64,000 nucleotides of DNA, from contig NZ_JAEUGD010000031.1 in the NCBI RefSeq assembly GCF_016775155.1, positions 124,001 to 188,000 on the forward strand. The letters are read 5' to 3'. The notes beneath the pieces were generated by a model. It worked only from the letters and a program-made list of their open reading frames with translations. It was not told where the DNA came from and made no database searches. The stretch comes from Fulvivirga marina (GTDB lineage: Bacteria > Bacteroidota > Bacteroidia > Cytophagales > Cyclobacteriaceae). Made by a program: the position numbers and the translations under genes. Below are positions 16,167 through 64,000 of the stretch, one piece after another (within the stretch, counting starts at the first letter, position 1; each line of letters opens with the position of its first letter).

Positions 16167-17616
16167 CTCCTGCAACAATGTTAATTTGTTCATTCACATA
16201 GTTTATCACCATGGCTTTAAGCTCTGTTCTGTTCTCTGGCTTGCGGGTCATATTAAGAATCAGATCGGCTATCAGTTCAGGGCTATTGTCCCTAATGCTT
16301 TGGGCAAACCGGTTAATGGTCTCCTGATCATCAATAACTCCTGCAAGAAACGTTTCAATATTAATCTCAAGCACAACTCTGGCTGCAGCCAAAAAAAACT
16401 GACGATGCGACTCTATCATTGCATTTATATTCTCATCGCCCCTTAAGGCTATCAAATCAGCCTGGGTTCCTTCAAAACTGTCCTCTACCTCCTCAAAATA
16501 TATAATATTATTATCGCCTTCCTCAGCATTAACCGTAAGCTGATAACCTTCACTCTGTAAATAGGTAGTATGTTGCTGCCCAATCGCCTCTTTCAGCCCC
16601 TCTTGCGCCGTGGTTAAAGAATCAATTTTCTCTCTCGCGGCCTGTACTCTTTCCCTAATAACCTCTTTAAGTAATTCCTTTAATATTTCTTCAACATCGA
16701 GATTAAACTCCTTCACAATAACATTAACTGAAATAGATCCGTCAGCAGATGAAAGTGTGACCACCTTCTGCCCTACTTCGCTAACATCAACACTCGCTGT
16801 CATTCCATCTGGATTAATTACTCCCTCCCACTCTACAGTTTCACTATCTGTTATAGCTCGTAGCAGAATCGGTTCTTCATTTTTCCAGACCTCTATATTA
16901 TTTCCATGCACATAGTTCTGATCATTGAATCGTAGAGCAAGATTTGGAATCATTGAATTACCCAACAGCTCCTTAATTCTGGTCATTCCCTTAAAAAGCA
17001 CTTTATTAACAGTTTCTTTAGCACCTGCGGGTGCGGAAAACTCCTGAGAAGTCAATTCGGCATTCATTTGACTTGCAACCTCATTTAGATTTATATCAAT
17101 TTGTTCACTGCCCGATAGGGTAATCTTCACTTTATATAGGGTAAGTTCATTATTAGGTACAAAAATCACATTGGAAACTATATAAGGAGCATTTTTCGAA
17201 TCATCCCTTGCCAGTGAGATTTCATTTAACTTTTTAATAGTCCAATGCTGATCTTCTATTAAGCCATACGGATAGAAATTAACAAAAGAAGACTCTTTAA
17301 ATTCATAAATCTCACTTTGCAACTCTCCATTAAAAAGAAATGCACCCGCTATGTCGCCAAGTTCTGAAGCTCCTTCGGCCAGTCCTTCCAGATCAACACG
17401 ATCATTCACATCTACATTAGAATAAAGAGAATATACAGTTACCCAATCCCTTAACCGTCTAAAGAGTTTTCTTTTGTCTACAGAGTCTGCAGGTATGATT
17501 GAATATGAAACTGACATTGATTTATCAATTATTTCATGCCCTGTATAGGCCTGCCCCCATTCAGGTATCAGTATCAGTGCAAATATCAATATGCTAATGG
17601 TTCTATATACCATCAT
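16156..17616 (-). CDS. secreted protein of unknown function with Ig-like region
   Basis: A 486-aa protein with a signal peptide (MMVYRTISILIFALILIPEWGQA). Residues about 220-300 look like a beta-sandwich (GVINPDGMTASVDVSEVGQK, VTLSSADGSISVNVIVKEF). A charged helical segment follows (EEILKELLKEVIRERVQAAREKIDSL). I recognise no enzymatic motif. The ATG overlaps the TGA of the giant TANFOR gene (ATGA), and the 3' end overlaps the next gene, so it is translationally embedded in the cluster. It probably works with the giant protein or the pre-toxin-like protein at the cell surface (inference). Confidence 0.68.
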   Translation of the reverse strand: MMVYRTISILIFALILIPEWGQAYTGHEIIDKSMSVSYSIIPADSVDKRKLFRRLRDWVTVYSLYSNVDVNDRVDLEGLAEGASELGDIAGAFLFNGELQSEIYEFKESSFVNFYPYGLIEDQHWTIKKLNEISLARDDSKNAPYIVSNVIFVPNNELTLYKVKITLSGSEQIDINLNEVASQMNAELTSQEFSAPAGAKETVNKVLFKGMTRIKELLGNSMIPNLALRFNDQNYVHGNNIEVWKNEEPILLRAITDSETVEWEGVINPDGMTASVDVSEVGQKVVTLSSADGSISVNVIVKEFNLDVEEILKELLKEVIRERVQAAREKIDSLTTAQEGLKEAIGQQHTTYLQSEGYQLTVNAEEGDNNIIYFEEVEDSFEGTQADLIALRGDENINAMIESHRQFFLAAARVVLEINIETFLAGVIDDQETINRFAQSIRDNSPELIADLILNMTRKPENRTELKAMVINYVNEQINIVAGDAE

Positions 17617-34640: not shown

Positions 34641-34734
34641 CTTTCAGTTAAAACAACGTACTTAGAGTCAATTAAAAGCCAACTATAGACACGAAAACAC
34701 CCCGGTGGCCAAGGCGCTTCCGGGGTGTTTTTTT
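34641..34734 (+). ncRNA. candidate sRNA, family B copy 1 (with intrinsic terminator)
   Basis: The plus strand holds a stretch that recurs on the minus strand at 40362-40449. Shared blocks are CTTTCAGTT, then CTTAGAGTCA, then AAAGCCAACTATAGAC, each followed at equal distance by a GC-rich hairpin and a T-tract. Here the terminator stem is AAACACCCCGG (34695-34705) with CCGGGGTGTTT (34720-34730) and eight Ts. Conservation extends at least 45 nt upstream of the hairpin, which a plain terminator would not need. It could be a free sRNA or a 3'-end-derived one from the upstream gene. A weak promoter (CTTG-N19-CAGCTTTC) lies near 34609-34638. Confidence 0.6.
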
Positions 34735-34782
34735 AATCGATTTTCTGGCTGCTTGTTTTTAGTTTACCAATTACCAATCAAT

Positions 34783-38271: not shown

Positions 38272-39735
38272 ATGACTCCAACTTTAGTAATAACTGTAAT
38301 TGCCGTCTATTTTGCTTTATTAATTACCATTTCTCTTATCACCACCAAAAGAAGCGATTCAAGCACCTTCTTTACCGCTAACCGGCAATCACCGTGGTAC
38401 TTAGTAGCTTTTGGAATGATCGGAGCATCACTGTCCGGAGTTACATTTATTTCCGTACCGGGATGGGTTGCTGATACTCAGTTTGCATACATGCAAATGG
38501 TACTAGGATACTTGCTCGGCTATCTGATTATAGCCACAGTATTAATGCCTATGTACTACAGGTTAAACCTTATCTCCATCTATGGTTATTTAGAGCAACG
38601 TTTCGGATTCTGGTCCTATAAAACCGGGGCCTTTTACTTTCTGCTTTCAAGAGTGATCGGCTCTTCCTTTAGGTTATTTCTGGTTGCTGGCGTTCTGCAG
38701 ATATTCCTGTTTGATGCCTGGGATGTTGACTTTTCTGTTACCGTGTTAGTAACTATAGTACTCATTTGGCTATACACTTTCCGAGGAGGTATAAAAACAA
38801 TCGTATGGACGGACACACTTCAAACATTATTTATGCTCTCTGCAGTAAGTATTGTGATTTACCTGATCAGCAAGGACCTTAACCTTTCCCTGGGCGGCAT
38901 TACCTCAGCCATCAAAGAAAGTGAATATTCTCAAATATTTTTCTGGGACTGGCAGACAGGAAAGAATTTCTTCAAGCAGTTTTTTGCGGGTGCCTTTATT
39001 GCTATTGTGATGACTGGCCTGGATCAGGATATGATGCAAAAGAACCTTACTTGTAAAAATCTTGGTGACGCACAAAAGAACATGTTCTGGTTTTCGATTA
39101 TCCTTGTATTTGCCAATCTACTGTTCCTGTCGATGGGAGCGCTACTATATATATATGCAAATAGCAATGGCATACCTCTTCCGGAAAGAACCGACAACCT
39201 ATTTCCCATGCTGGCCAGGGACCATTTCAATATCATTGCAGGCATAGTCTTCCTTTTGGGAATAATCGCAGCGGCCTATTCAAGTGCTGATTCAGCTCTC
39301 ACAGCACTTACCACTTCTTTTTGCGTAGATTTCCTCAACTTTAAAGAACACGAAACCACTCTGGCATTTCAGCATAAACAAAGGAATACGAGACTTATAG
39401 TACACCTAGGCTTCTCATTGCTTATGTTTTTGGTGATTATTCTTTTTAAGAAAATAAATAACGATGCCGTAATAAGTGCAGTATTTACAGCAGCAAGTTA
39501 CACCTACGGGCCTTTGCTAGGGTTATATTCCTTCGGTTTATTTACGAAACTTCAAGTACGGGATTATGGAGTTCCTATAGTATGCCTCATCTCTCCAGCA
39601 CTTTCTTACTGGCTAAACATTAATTCTGAAGAGCTACTGAATGGCTATAAATTCGGCTTTGAAATACTGATTGTCAACGGCGGGATCACCTTCGTGGGAT
39701 TGCTGTTACTTTATAAAAAAAGAAGCCGTCCCTAA
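38272..39735 (+). CDS. sodium:solute symporter (SSS family)
   Basis: A 487-aa inner-membrane sodium-coupled transporter with about 13 helices. Family signatures include GMIGASLSGVTFISVPGWV near the N-terminus, the long helix pair around YLEQRFGFWSYKTGAFYFLLSR, VIWLYTFRGGIKTIVWTDTLQ, TGLDQDMMQKNLTCKN and AAYSSADSALTALTTS, the last close to the sodium-site serines. The substrate is unknown. The stop codon (39733-39735) lies inside the stem of the opposite-strand terminator of the first sRNA-like unit, so the gene end and that RNA are tightly linked. Confidence 0.92.
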   Translation: MTPTLVITVIAVYFALLITISLITTKRSDSSTFFTANRQSPWYLVAFGMIGASLSGVTFISVPGWVADTQFAYMQMVLGYLLGYLIIATVLMPMYYRLNLISIYGYLEQRFGFWSYKTGAFYFLLSRVIGSSFRLFLVAGVLQIFLFDAWDVDFSVTVLVTIVLIWLYTFRGGIKTIVWTDTLQTLFMLSAVSIVIYLISKDLNLSLGGITSAIKESEYSQIFFWDWQTGKNFFKQFFAGAFIAIVMTGLDQDMMQKNLTCKNLGDAQKNMFWFSIILVFANLLFLSMGALLYIYANSNGIPLPERTDNLFPMLARDHFNIIAGIVFLLGIIAAAYSSADSALTALTTSFCVDFLNFKEHETTLAFQHKQRNTRLIVHLGFSLLMFLVIILFKKINNDAVISAVFTAASYTYGPLLGLYSFGLFTKLQVRDYGVPIVCLISPALSYWLNINSEELLNGYKFGFEILIVNGGITFVGLLLLYKKRSRP

Positions 39736-39811
39736 CCAGGGGACGGCTCAAAAACTGTTCTCGTTAAAACCAACTAAAAACGAGTGATACAGCTTCTTTT
39801 CAACCTAACCA
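39713..39811 (-). ncRNA. candidate sigma54-dependent sRNA, family A unit 1
   Basis: Minus-strand unit. From the predicted start (about 39811) it reads GGTTAGGTTGA. A hairpin follows with outer CTGT/ACAG and inner CTCGTT/AACGAG pairs (plus 39755-39758 with 39789-39792, and 39760-39765 with 39779-39784), displaying the loop UUUUAGUUGGUUUU. A terminator ends it: stem AGCCGTCCC/GGGACGGCT (39724-39732 with 39740-39748), then TTCTTTTTTT on the minus strand. Predicted length is about 95-100 nt. There is no reading frame of note. A- and not T-runs follow the hairpin on the plus strand, so the RNA is minus-strand. Confidence 0.72.
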
Positions 39812-39821
39812 GTTTGATAAT

Positions 39822-39837
39822 TACAACACTCATGCCA
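39822..39837 (-). promoter_or_regulatory. sigma54-type -24/-12 box, unit 1
   Basis: Minus strand TGGCATG-AGTG-TTGTA: GG and G(T) separated by exactly 10 nt, against the sigma54 consensus TGGCACG-N4-TTGCW. The -12 C is T. Predicted start about 39811, just before the conserved GGTTAGG. Confidence 0.65.
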
Positions 39838-40075
39838 GAACTAAAATGGTTATTAAAACACCTTAAAAACAGCAAAAATAGCCATCAACTGTCCCTTCAA
39901 GAGAAAGTTATCCCAAAATGAAGCTCTTTAAATTTTATTCACTAACTATCATTGACACTAAAAACTTGCCGAGACATAAAAAGCAAATGGTGTGAGAACT
40001 TAAGGAAACACATAGAGAGTAAAATACGGACAGAAGGTAAAGCCAGGTTATCAAAATATAGATTTTGCTGAAGCA

Positions 40076-40169
40076 TAAAAAAGCCATCCCTAACCAAGAG
40101 ATGGCTTTTTACTGCTTCTCGTTAAAACCAACTAAAAACGAGTGATAACAGCTTGTTCAACCTAACCGA
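40076..40169 (-). ncRNA. candidate sigma54-dependent sRNA, family A unit 2
   Basis: Minus-strand unit, close to unit 1 in sequence. It starts near 40168-40170 with TCGGTTAGGTTGA. A hairpin with CTG/CAG and CTCGTT/AACGAG stems (plus 40112-40123 with 40137-40151) again displays UUUUAGUUGGUUUU. The terminator stem is AAAAGCCATC/GATGGCTTTT (40079-40088 with 40100-40109), with inner pairs that are G-U on the minus strand but C-A mismatches on the plus strand. A short T-run follows. Predicted length is about 94 nt. No protein-coding potential is seen. Confidence 0.74.
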
Positions 40170-40178
40170 TAAAAGAAT

Positions 40179-40194
40179 TACAACACTCGTGCCA
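40179..40194 (-). promoter_or_regulatory. sigma54-type -24/-12 box, unit 2
   Basis: Minus strand TGGCACG-AGTG-TTGTA. The -24 half is a perfect TGGCACG; the -12 half has TTGT in place of TTGC. GG-N10-G spacing is exact. This is the best match of the four. Confidence 0.68.
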
Positions 40195-40349
40195 GTCGTT
40201 AATCATGATTGAGCCAGTATTCAGGGTCATTCAAGCACTTCAATCGAACCAAAAAGAGAAAAAAACCAATTTGATTTACTTATTTCTGAAAGGTGATGTA
40301 GCAGTTTGAGGAAAGATGAAAGTCAGCATGCAATACCCTCATTTCACGC

Positions 40350-40491
40350 TTGTAAACAAAAAATCCCCTGAAGGCCTGGCTCCAGGGGATAATTCGTTGT
40401 CTATAGTTGGCTTTAATGACTCTAAGGTAATAGGAGCAATTAAAAACTGAAAGGTTCTATCGACAAACCGCCTAATCCACTGTTAAAGAGC
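40350..40491 (-). ncRNA. candidate sRNA, family B copy 2
   Basis: Minus-strand relative of the plus-strand element at 34641-34734. Conserved blocks are CTTTCAGTT (plus 40441-40453 region), CTTAGAGTCA and AAAGCCAACTATAGAC (plus 40399-40426). A terminator follows: ATCCCCTG/CAGGGGAT (40363-40370 with 40383-40390), then TTTTTTG on the minus strand. It sits inside the family A array between units 2 and 3 but shares no promoter type with them. The 5' end is placed from the promoter-like sequence at 40498-40527, giving about 140 nt. A later start near 40450 is equally possible. Confidence 0.62.
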
Positions 40492-40497
40492 ACATAA

Positions 40498-40527
40498 CAA
40501 AGATGGGTGTGCCTAACAAGTGACAAA
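40498..40527 (-). promoter_or_regulatory. TTTG-N18-CATCTTTG housekeeping-type promoter for family B copy 2
   Basis: On the minus strand TTTG (plus 40524-40527) and CATCTTTG (plus 40498-40505) are 18 nt apart, the spacing expected for Bacteroidota -33/-7 elements. The -7 box has one mismatch and equals the one proposed at 33322. Confidence 0.45.
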
Positions 40528-40540
40528 GCAATAGAACTAT

Positions 40541-40637
40541 AAAAAGAAAGGCCGCCCCTAACCAAAGGACGGCCTAGCTGTACATGCTAAAACCAACTAA
40601 AACCAGTGTACAGCTTTTAGTTTGACCCAAACTAACT
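40541..40637 (-). ncRNA. candidate sigma54-dependent sRNA, family A unit 3
   Basis: Minus-strand unit with the clearest fold: three stems in a row. 5' stem TTAGTTTG/CAAACTAA (plus 40617-40624 with 40628-40635, loop of three); middle stem AGCTGTACA/TGTACAGCT (40576-40584 with 40607-40615) carrying the shared UUUUAGUUGGUUUUA in a 22-nt loop; terminator stem AGGCCGTCC/GGGCGGCCT (40549-40557 with 40567-40575), which has a G-U pair on the minus strand and a C-A mismatch on the plus, then TTTCTTTTT. The middle stem differs completely from units 1 and 2, yet the loop is the same. Confidence 0.76.
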
Positions 40638-40645
40638 CACTGATA

Positions 40646-40661
40646 ATCAATAGGCATGCCA
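40646..40661 (-). promoter_or_regulatory. sigma54-type -24/-12 box, unit 3
   Basis: Minus strand TGGCATG-CCTA-TTGAT, with GG and G(A) 10 nt apart. Predicted start near 40635, at the base of the 5' hairpin. A near-palindrome TCTCAATTTGAGA lies about 60 nt upstream (40714-40726) and might be an activator site (weak). Confidence 0.58.
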
Positions 40662-40949
40662 ATACAAAAACCCCTCAATATGACAAATTCGGGCATTTAT
40701 TTTATAAATATCATCTCAATTTGAGAAGGTAATTCCCAGAACGATCTTGTCTGATTTTACACTCAATCAGCTCGTCCTTTTAGAGGAAAATTACTTATAT
40801 ACTCCTCTCTCAAAAAATCACAACAACCTCAAAATTAGTAATTTACAAAGTTTAATATTAGCTTCTTTAGCAAAAGATCAAAAAATGAAGAAAATACACA
40901 GCAATAGGACGGCAAGATAAAATCCAAAGGTGTGATATTCTAACAACAC

Positions 40950-40991
40950 AAAAAGGCCGTCCCTAGCAGGGGACGGCCTAAAAACGAAATT
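40950..40991 (-). ncRNA. minimal or decayed family A unit 4
   Basis: A sigma54-like box is followed after about 20 nt by the family-type terminator, AGGCCGTCCC/GGGACGGCCT (plus 40954-40963 with 40970-40979), and TTTTTGTGTTG on the minus strand. The middle hairpin and the UAGUUGG loop are missing, so a transcript would be only about 40 nt. It may be a deletion product or a minimal transcription stop. Confidence 0.55.
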
Positions 40992-41001
40992 TTAAAATAA
41001 C

Positions 41002-41017
41002 AACAAGTAGTGTGCCA
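41002..41017 (-). promoter_or_regulatory. sigma54-type -24/-12 box, unit 4
   Basis: Minus strand TGGCACA-CTAC-TTGTT, GG-N10-G spacing exact. Predicted start A at about 40991. Confidence 0.55.
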
Positions 41018-41141
41018 AATCCATGCTTAAAACAATATTTAGATTCCATCTGGGGGAAATTTATCGCTACCGAAGAACAGCCCAGAAATTTTTAAACGAA
41101 GAGCACCCTTTAATAAATAACAAAAAAGGTTTGAGATTCTC

Positions 41142-41480
41142 TTAAATAGCCAACTCAATGGCAGGGTCCCAAAATCTGGCTTTGAAGTCCACAACCTTAT
41201 CCTTATTGATTTTAATATTTTCAGACTCCAACAATCTTTGCATTTCATTTGGATCGTCAAAGTGATTTTTACCCGTTAGAAGTCCTTCACGGTTGACCAC
41301 ACGATGCGCTGGAACATCCTGCATACCATGTGCAGCATTCATAGCCCAACCTACCATGCGCGCACTCCCTTTAACACCCAGATAGTTAGCTATGGCTCCA
41401 TAACTAGTAACCCTTCCTTCAGGAATTAGCTTTACTACCTCATAGACGTTTGCAAAAAAATCTTTGTTCTTATGCTCCAT
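41142..41480 (-). CDS. MGMT-family alkyltransferase-like protein without the active Cys
   Basis: A 112-aa protein equal to the C-terminal DNA-binding domain of O6-alkylguanine-DNA alkyltransferase (FANVYEVVKLIPEGRVTSYGAIANYLG, here as two motifs; GSARMVGWAMNAA). The catalytic PCHRV motif is PAHRVV, so the methyl-accepting Cys is Ala. This fits the ATL group, which binds O6-alkylguanine and hands lesions to nucleotide excision repair. Length is typical for ATL proteins. No operon partner is visible. Its 3' side leads into the sRNA-like array without an evident terminator. Confidence 0.9.
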   Translation of the reverse strand: MEHKNKDFFANVYEVVKLIPEGRVTSYGAIANYLGVKGSARMVGWAMNAAHGMQDVPAHRVVNREGLLTGKNHFDDPNEMQRLLESENIKINKDKVVDFKARFWDPAIELAI

Positions 41481-62566: not shown

Positions 62567-64000
62567 ATGAGAAATATTTTTATTCTGCTTGTGCTTGGAT
62601 GCTTTCAGTTGGCTCATGGGCAAACAACTCCATATTTTGTATTTCCAGACAATTTTGCCTGGAATGTAATTGAGGAGGGGGACACATTGGAGTTTGATCT
62701 TAAAATACACCCGGGTAATTCAAAAGACTACCTCTATTCCATCTATGGTGACCGCGGTTTGTCCTTACGTTTTGATTCGCTCGGCAGCTTCTTCTGGTCT
62801 CCGTCTTATGACTTAGTAGACAGGGTCCGTGAAAAAGAAGAGTTCAGTGTGATCTTTGAGGCTGTATCAAAGGACGGTAAAAAAATAAGGAAGGAAGTAC
62901 CCTTCACTGTGCTTCATAAAAACAGGCCCCCTGTGGTTGATGAGCTTCCGGTTTTCTATGTAAAACAATATTCAGCCAATGAATTTAACCTCAATCAGCT
63001 CAACCAAATCAGAGATCTTGATGAAGATCCTATAGTTTTTAAACCTATTTTATCTGCTATGCCGGAAGGTGCCGACCTTACCGAGCTTGGCATCTTTACC
63101 TGGAAACCATCAAGAAACCAGTTCAGAGCTTTGAGGCGTGAACCACTAAAGGTTTCATTCATTGTACAAGACCAGCCAGAGAAATCAGAGGTTACAGGCA
63201 CTTTGGTAATAGCACCTACGCAGCTAGACCTTCCTCCTGAAATTACAATGGTACCCAATGACACACTCCTCACTATAGATGAAGACGAGGTGCTAAATCT
63301 GAATTTTTATGTATCTGACCCCAACGGAGATGATAATATCAAAGATGTAGGATTTGTTTCTAACGACATGCGGGTATCAAAAACCTCTCTAAAACGAAAC
63401 ACTGCTACACAATGGGAGTTTACCTGGATCCCTGGTTATGACTTTGTAGGTGAAGCTGAAAGCAGCAGCCTCGTAGAGTTGATCTTTTATGTTATCGATG
63501 AATCAAACAAAAGGTCTGAAAGGGCTCTGAACGTTAAGATAATGGACACAGAAAACCTGGAGCAAAAAGACCAGAGATTATACAGTAAATACAGAAGTAT
63601 GTTGGTTCAGACTATGGACCTCATAGACCAACTGGACGAAAACCAGAAAAGGCTAAACAAACAGCTAAGACAAGCTAAAAAGGGAAAAAGAAAAAGGTCT
63701 ATACTTAATGCCTCTCTAGGTGCCATCACTGGTGTATCACCCGTGTTTATGGAGAATGACAGCAAAGATTATGTCACAGGGGTTGGAGGTACAGCTGTAA
63801 TGACCCTGGGTACTCTGGAAGCCACCGAAGTACTTGGCCGGTCAAAAGATGATATTATGGAAAAGCTCAAGCTTAATATTGATATTAGAAACCAGTTACA
63901 GGCAGAGGGTGACCAGTTTGCAAGACAATACGCACTAAAGTCACAGCGAAGGGATAAAAACTTTTATGTAGACATTGATAAGCTTAAAGCTCAGCTCAAC
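62567..64000 (+). CDS. secreted Ig-like/coiled-coil protein (3' end outside window)
   Basis: An open frame of at least 478 codons from ATG 62567 to the window end, no stop. The signal peptide is MRNIFILLVLGCFQLAHGQ. Repeated beta-sandwich units follow, of the cadherin/Ig-like type (EEGDTLEFDLKIHPGNSKDY; NQIRDLDEDPIVFKP; IDEDEVLNLNFYVSDPNGDD). From about residue 325 comes a charged coiled coil (DQLDENQKRLNKQLRQAKKG), then a Gly/Ala-rich segment (LNASLGAITGVSP). I cannot name a family. It is probably periplasmic or surface-exposed. It follows the LytTR gene by 122 nt. Confidence 0.75.
   Translation, partial: MRNIFILLVLGCFQLAHGQTTPYFVFPDNFAWNVIEEGDTLEFDLKIHPGNSKDYLYSIYGDRGLSLRFDSLGSFFWSPSYDLVDRVREKEEFSVIFEAVSKDGKKIRKEVPFTVLHKNRPPVVDELPVFYVKQYSANEFNLNQLNQIRDLDEDPIVFKPILSAMPEGADLTELGIFTWKPSRNQFRALRREPLKVSFIVQDQPEKSEVTGTLVIAPTQLDLPPEITMVPNDTLLTIDEDEVLNLNFYVSDPNGDDNIKDVGFVSNDMRVSKTSLKRNTATQWEFTWIPGYDFVGEAESSSLVELIFYVIDESNKRSERALNVKIMDTENLEQKDQRLYSKYRSMLVQTMDLIDQLDENQKRLNKQLRQAKKGKRKRSILNASLGAITGVSPVFMENDSKDYVTGVGGTAVMTLGTLEATEVLGRSKDDIMEKLKLNIDIRNQLQAEGDQFARQYALKSQRRDKNFYVDIDKLKAQLN

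Follow-up and report, generated by a model that had tools for sequence, protein, structure and literature searches.

The stretch analysed here, hereafter the window, comprises 64,000 nucleotides (nt) of contig NZ_JAEUGD010000031.1 from Fulvivirga marina, a member of the Bacteroidota. Between a sodium:solute symporter gene and an MGMT-like gene lies a gap of 1.4 kb whose minus strand carries four units, u1 to u4, each combining a promoter box with a hairpin terminator, which we assign to a multicopy family of small RNAs (sRNAs) termed family A. That this family is real and driven by sigma54 we regard as very likely. The initial annotation of the region described four alike minus-strand units in a stretch free of protein genes, and on the latter point we agree: no open reading frame (ORF) of more than 57 amino acids lies wholly within the gap, a 73-residue frame (41039-41260, minus strand) only overlapping the MGMT-like gene. 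The repeats of the four units are found at 39712, 40070, 40538 and 40942; the terminators of u1, u3 and u4 were scored by a terminator scan, and that of u2 was seen as an inverted repeat (I1). The features of the locus are the following.

38272-39735, plus strand: sodium:solute symporter gene (PF00474)
39716..39811, minus strand: predicted u1 sRNA; 5′ seed GGTTAGGTTGA at 39800-39810, hairpin loop TTTTTAGTTGGTTTTA with core at 39766-39776, terminator at 39723-39749
39824..39837, minus strand: u1 sigma54 -24/-12 promoter TGGCATGAGTGTTG; predicted start 39811
39890..39906, minus strand: u1 palindromic site resembling an enhancer (score 13.4), centred at -61 relative to the box
40074..40168, minus strand: predicted u2 sRNA; seed at 40157-40167, loop core at 40124-40134, terminator at about 40080-40109
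40181..40194, minus strand: u2 sigma54 promoter TGGCACGAGTGTTG; predicted start 40168
40245..40261, minus strand: u2 weak site resembling an enhancer, in phase and centred at -59; its score of 6.0 does not exceed the threshold
40354..40426, minus strand: family B element, a short multicopy unit distinct from family A and with a terminator of its own; the hairpin loop of family A is complementary to its 5′ tail TTAAAGCCAACTATAGACAACGAA
40540..40635, minus strand: predicted u3 sRNA; loop kept at 40589-40599, 5′ seed altered to GTTTGGGTCA, terminator at 40549-40575
40648..40661, minus strand: u3 sigma54 promoter TGGCATGCCTATTG; predicted start 40635
40712..40728, minus strand: u3 palindromic site resembling an enhancer (score 15.3), centred at -59
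40954..40991, minus strand: u4 relic; terminator at 40954-40979 and little else after the predicted start, the seed and most of the hairpin missing
41004..41017, minus strand: u4 sigma54 box TGGCACACTACTTG; no phased enhancer found
41142-41480, minus strand: MGMT-like gene (PF01035)

The likeness of the four units holds for u1 and u2, which are intact, and fails for u3, whose 5′ motif is altered, and for u4, which retains promoter and terminator only. A unit of a sister species (G014, L031:6222) that is similar to u4 in box and position is intact, and u4 is therefore apparently a copy of a formerly intact unit that decayed by deletion. The family B element lies, as first described, within the larger step between u2 and u3.

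Each RNA is predicted to be about 95-100 nt long. Its 5′ end is rich in G and U and reads GGTTAGGTTGA in u1 and u2; next comes a hairpin, whose loop is TTTTTAGTTGGTTTTA, and then the terminator. The 5′ end, at about +1, is conserved and the hairpin loop is nearly invariant, both being single-stranded modules of the predicted fold. We considered whether the RNAs encode a small protein and rejected this, the longest frames in the 22 aligned copies having 2-26 codons, with TTG as the start in each, and not being conserved.

Sigma54 promoters, a phased enhancer and covarying structure

The pattern TGGCAYN5TTG has only four exact matches in the window, at 39837, 40194, 40661 and 41017 on the minus strand, and these are the boxes of the four units (1.37 matches are expected by chance, and 4 of 100 shuffles reach four). 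The promoter-like boxes of the initial annotation are thus sigma54 elements, and counting 26 nt from the T of each box gives starts at 39811, 40168, 40635 and 40991, exactly the values it had predicted. Promoters of the sigma70 type were rejected as the unit boxes, since a scan of the region found no excess of them over chance (8 against 10.2 expected).

Apart from the units in the window, the genome of F. marina (G000) holds a second family A locus, C38, found by BLAST, a search that gave matches in 8 of 58 genomes, G000 included, those in two of the eight (G046 and G051) being short and outside the genus. A model of the transcribed part, R1, was built from 22 aligned copies, which came from a scan requiring a box, so that the presence of a box in them is uninformative; their 5′ motif starts 28-30 nt past the box's T in 21 of the 22. 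R1 matches all 15 Fulvivirga genomes at one to nine places each (E up to 0.05), weakly in some, for instance G010 and G011. With stricter filters it matches 11 of 196 genomes of the taxonomic family, four within the genus and seven, weakly, outside it; among these seven only G111 has a sigma54 box upstream, and its locus (L060), which belongs to another genus and also has the loop, is a possible distant relative of family A. In addition, a genome collection of 84,980 species by its own description was put through a pattern scan and the resulting 40 stretches were checked with R1, which at E up to 1 matches 15 and leaves 25 without a match. Fourteen of the 15 come from records that bear the label Fulvivirga or Flammeovirgaceae, with best E values no higher than 2.6e-5, and L135 (E 0.51) we treated as a chance match. 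We rejected a wide distribution of the family, as good matches occur only in records so labelled.

As the promoter is excluded from R1, the boxes found upstream of its matches are counted separately from the model. A strict sigma54 box lies at most 75 nt upstream of 49 of the 57 model matches, and a laxer one of 52, compared to a mean of 0.035 and a maximum of 1 strict boxes (maximum 2 for the laxer) in shuffled upstream sequences. The gene for sigma54 itself, rpoN, is present as a single copy in all 15 genomes of the genus. In G004, G006 and G007 another copy or cluster of family A is found about 1.6-2.9 kb from rpoN, and the rpoN region of G000 has none. Mini copies with 5′ seed and terminator and no hairpin also occur in G004 (L147), where they adjoin an RtcB gene about 9-10 kb from rpoN; three of them have a sigma54 box (16241, 16707 and 16978, minus strand) and a fourth has none, and the model match there is at 16384-16448 (minus strand).

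Upstream of the boxes we searched 53 collected promoters, which include one false positive and u4, for an enhancer. The palindrome tTTCCCAAaTTGGGAAa scores above 6 in 49 of them, from a motif trained on the same 53 sequences with a seed word of our choosing and a palindromic constraint. Position was not used in the training, and the 49 centres lie at -59 to -63 (32), -69 to -73 (8) or -79 to -81 (9) from the box and none elsewhere, that is, in windows spaced by 10 nt, or one helical turn. On mononucleotide shuffles the fixed motif is found in a mean of 4.3 and a maximum of 12 of the 53. Good sites are present at u1 and u3, while u2 scores 6.0 in phase and u4 has none. As a sequence feature, the phased palindrome is what would be expected of a single enhancer-binding protein that controls the copies jointly. 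The genome of F. marina has 11 strong matches to the sigma54-activator domain (PF00158), and the motif is too weak to choose one among these activator genes.

The covarying homologues that the initial annotation named as support were found. Changes on both sides of a pair, that is, compensatory changes, occur in all three helices, with 130 cells compared to 37.2 in shuffles among 57 sequences in an alignment fitted to the model, and 31 compared to 13.2 in the unfitted 22 rows. What the homologues share is not confined to the terminator, whose loop varies in distant species; there, the sigma54 box and the hairpin loop are kept in most copies shown, with two copies having the loop and no box. 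One cluster adjoins the same symporter gene in G000, G001, G002, G006, G014 and G007.

That the array is a repeat element or a row of terminators with no function as RNA is very improbable, for while its copies are tandem and one is a relic, helices that all covary, phased enhancers, a strict box at 49 of 57 matches and a conserved loop and synteny argue the other way.

Complementary sites at start codons

In the genome of F. marina we counted 42 occurrences of TCAACCTAAMC, which is complementary to the 5′ end, compared to 5 of the reversed control. The word TCAACCTAAAC is at least about twofold over its control in G000, G001, G002, G004, G005, G006, G007 and G014 and is not enriched in the other seven members of the genus; among 43 genomes outside the genus it clearly exceeds the control only in G026 (9 against 3). 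We classified 99 sites from six genomes (41 in G000, 14 in G004, 10 in G006, 14 in G002, 15 in G001 and 5 in G011), placing a site at a start codon if an ORF with a minimum length of 100 amino acids had its ATG within -20 to +30 nt. By this criterion the complementary strand has 23 start-codon sites and the seed strand none; of the other sites, 9 fall inside ORFs and 67 in neither position.

By Pfam, 11 of the 23 target-like genes encode metalloproteases (seven M57, three M4 and one astacin). The others comprise an alpha-amylase, a pectinesterase, a sortilin/BNR protein, a pyridoxal phosphate (PLP) decarboxylase, an AraC-type regulator, a TPR protein, an ABC/TerB protein, one match to DUF3892 just under the cut-off and four with no match above it. 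Outside the 23, a GH9 gene of G004 has a site 36 nt before its ATG. The M57 site is kept in five species (G000, G001, G002, G004 and G011) though much of the surrounding leader differs, the compared M57 proteins of G004 and G011 being 53% and 37% identical to that of G000. The best predicted duplex, between the 5′ end of u1 and the amylase leader, has an energy of -29.8 kcal/mol, and with the first 28 nt of u1 seven of eight sites in the genome of F. marina beat 40 control leaders; as these eight leaders were chosen by their 11-mer, the result speaks for the strength of the pairing and not for its independence.

For the hairpin loop the picture is less distinct. In a search for pairing sites beyond families A and B, its complement, AAARCCAACTA, has 39 matches compared to 30 for the reversed control, with no clear excess, and among 30 loci the complementary strand has four such sites upstream of a start codon, the other strand none. 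Genes for PLP decarboxylases have a site complementary to the seed in G004 (L275) and one complementary to the loop in G000 (L207).

The seed also recurs in sense in other settings. A leader element, GTTTAGGTTGA followed by a strong hairpin of GGAGG/CCTCC type, precedes genes for small proteins of about 80-111 amino acids at L222, L225, L226, L227, L235, L236, L247 and L251; one of these proteins has no Pfam match and one a sub-threshold helix-turn-helix match. Further units that resemble sRNAs and combine this 5′ seed with a hairpin are found at L238, L239, L268, L277 and L301, with close pairs formed by L238 and L239 (in the genome of F. marina, neither with a sigma54 box), in L277 and in L301. 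In G004, G006 and G002 the seed forms part of an Iso_dh leader (L270, L285) and precedes a Metallophos gene (L272, L297), apparently within inverted repeats as judged by eye, Pfam having been run for L270 and L272.

A model for family A and its rivals

With its own promoters and terminators, a conserved seed and complementary sites at start codons, family A has the features of a trans-acting multicopy sRNA, as far as these can be read from DNA. We propose that each RNA of about 95-100 nt is transcribed separately from its own sigma54 promoter, and that one enhancer-binding activator would bind the upstream palindrome in helical phase, so that all copies would fire together once its signal is on. 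The 5′ end (of the GGUUUAGGUUGA type) would then pair with sites of the UCAACCUAAACC type just before start codons and block translation, the mRNAs concerned being those of secreted metalloproteases, glycan-degrading enzymes and other exported proteins. The hairpin loop (UUUUUAGUUGGUUUUA) may offer a further pairing region, used with the family B RNA and with a small number of other mRNAs. The main action of family A is probably to repress exoenzyme mRNAs by way of its 5′ end, and we think it likely that the reading as a whole is correct, namely that these are sigma54-induced, multicopy, trans-acting sRNAs that repress exoenzyme translation, the activator and signal being left open.

Several observations weigh against this reading. 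Eight of the 57 model matches have no strict box, and five have neither a strict nor a lax one: that of G010, where the family A matches seen have no box, and one each in G003, G004, G007 and G008, whose remaining copies do have a box. Expectation-maximisation (EM) on 20 shuffled promoter sets also yields motifs, found in 7-36 of the 53 sequences and worth 6.0-10.4 bits compared to 12.5 for the palindrome. A wider start-codon window (-20 to 70 nt, three genomes) gives 10 complementary-strand and 5 seed-strand sites, the latter five being leaders that carry the seed in sense. Twelve of the 23 target-like genes do not encode metalloproteases, and the AraC-type regulator and the ABC/TerB protein are not obviously exported. 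When full-length u1 or u2 is used, the eight leaders are no longer distinct from the 40 controls, 3-36 of which score as well. In a single test of seed-target coevolution, the complement of the species' own variant 5′ end is not enriched in the distant G003, G009, G012 and G013, and G011 has three target-like sites although the 5′ end of its family A copy has diverged. Finally, 28 of the 41 sites in the genome of F. marina are neither in an ORF nor at a complementary-strand start; four of these are family A itself and 24 others carry the seed elsewhere between genes, and among 30 seed loci examined a sigma54 box is found only at the four family A copies. The seed being common elsewhere, and mostly boxless, the target sites may pair with something other than family A.

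Given these many other places, family A may act as a decoy, and the target sites may be shared with other RNAs. The RNAs could thus be real and sigma54-driven and yet act mainly by titrating an RNA-binding protein or another RNA away from the many leaders and 3′ regions whose motif their 5′ end, GGUUUAGGUUGA, copies, in the manner of CrcZ and CsrB, which are titrating decoys. CrcZ and CrcY of Pseudomonas are sigma54-driven small RNAs that bind a protein by A-rich repeats; family A shares the sigma54 promoter, whereas no A-rich repeats were seen in it. The 24 other places in the genome of F. marina outside ORFs often have the motif in or next to a predicted hairpin, and its occurrence in the Iso_dh leader and beside the Metallophos gene of other species fits titration as well. 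Nevertheless, a protein decoy does not predict that complements of the motif stand immediately in front of start codons and on one strand only (23 to 0), and no candidate factor was identified, so we consider decoys unlikely as the main explanation.

We judge equally unlikely that family A chiefly sponges, or is sponged by, family B through pairing of the A loop with the invariant 5′ tail of B. Family B, which has a nearly invariant AATTAAAGCCAACTATAGACAACGAA tail and a terminator and often forms tandem arrays, is found in all 15 genomes of the genus at 1-13 places each, and in the window also at 34664-34738 (plus strand); boxes upstream of it resemble the Bacteroidota TAnnTTTG element. Tail and loop form 13 contiguous plus 4 further pairs at -19.1 kcal/mol, as well as which none of 2000 shuffled tails pair, and strong pairing is kept with the changed loops of G006 (-20.2 and -15.9) and with one of G007 (-20.3). 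The other G007 loop (-11.1) and that of G010 (-10.3) pair weakly, however, and when the whole A RNAs are used, the native pairing is equalled by 0.5-3.2% of tail shuffles and by 0.5-6.1% of A shuffles. Among 21,324 stretches of the window B ranks behind the antisense of the A units themselves and one place near 62620 (about 62614-62626, minus strand), which pairs with the loop slightly better (-19.6 kcal/mol). The G004 mini copies have no hairpin with which to act in this way, and B occurs in 30 of 148 genomes of the taxonomic family, 26 of them outside the genus, where A gave only seven weak matches among the 196 searched. A wider reading, likewise doubtful, is that the two families, with their different promoter types, form one circuit, in which A would repress exoenzyme mRNAs by its seed, its loop would capture or be captured by B, and about two dozen other seed places would compete for the same sites.

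Relation to known sRNAs and significance

The Qrr RNAs of Vibrio are several small RNAs that pair with mRNAs and are driven from separate sigma54 promoters, every one of which has an activator site; their hallmarks are activation by LuxO in quorum sensing and dependence on Hfq. The initial annotation likened the layout of the locus to theirs while holding the sequences unrelated, and the boxes, covariation, loop and 5′ end bear this out. Like the Qrr RNAs, the subject of PMC10162802, family A comprises multiple RNAs of similar size with a sigma54 promoter (at all four units of the window and, as a strict box, at 49 of 57 matches) and an upstream site for an enhancer-binding protein, the phased palindrome of 49 of 53 promoters. 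It is unlike them in belonging to another phylum, in its tandem clusters and in that its targets look like exoenzyme mRNAs directly. In the window, as in 15 loci that bear the seed, no known RNA family of Rfam reaches its gathering score, and at E up to 5 nothing named Qrr was found in 39600-41150, the low-score matches there being treated as chance; the library presumably holds a Qrr model. Since no Rfam model matches it, we conclude from sequence comparison that family A is Qrr-like in layout and not a Qrr member.

The further suggestion of the initial annotation, that no described Bacteroidota counterpart is known, needs a qualification. Multicopy sRNA families are known in the phylum, the nearest we met being FopS: according to passages of PMC11697453, the paralogous multicopy FopS/GibS sRNAs of Bacteroides thetaiotaomicron act near the start codons of extracellular carbon-use genes and share an R1 seed, and FopS has canonical sigmaABfr promoters and binds RbpB. 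By this description family A resembles FopS/GibS as a multicopy Bacteroidota family with sites near start codons, and it differs from FopS in having sigma54 boxes and not a canonical sigmaA-type promoter. Rfp18 of Flavobacterium psychrophilum is likewise a Bacteroidota sRNA linked to metalloprotease mRNAs, which are among its predicted targets, and its deletion lowered, not raised, two protease mRNAs; unlike family A, it is not called sigma54-dependent in the passages on it (PMC9723704). In the titles and abstracts of the open-licence papers listed by our searches, which for one search were 20 of 200, we found no description of a sigma54-driven multicopy sRNA family of Bacteroidota.

If the transcripts are confirmed, the Qrr layout of redundant sigma54-driven sRNAs with phased activator sites would have evolved more than once, and this case would lie in a phylum whose sRNA regulation is little known. 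With the seed, the target sites and the enhancer in hand, the activator, its signal and the control of exoenzymes are directly testable. Should the circuit of the two families also be true, it would amount to an RNA switch for extracellular digestion that evolved independently of Qrr.

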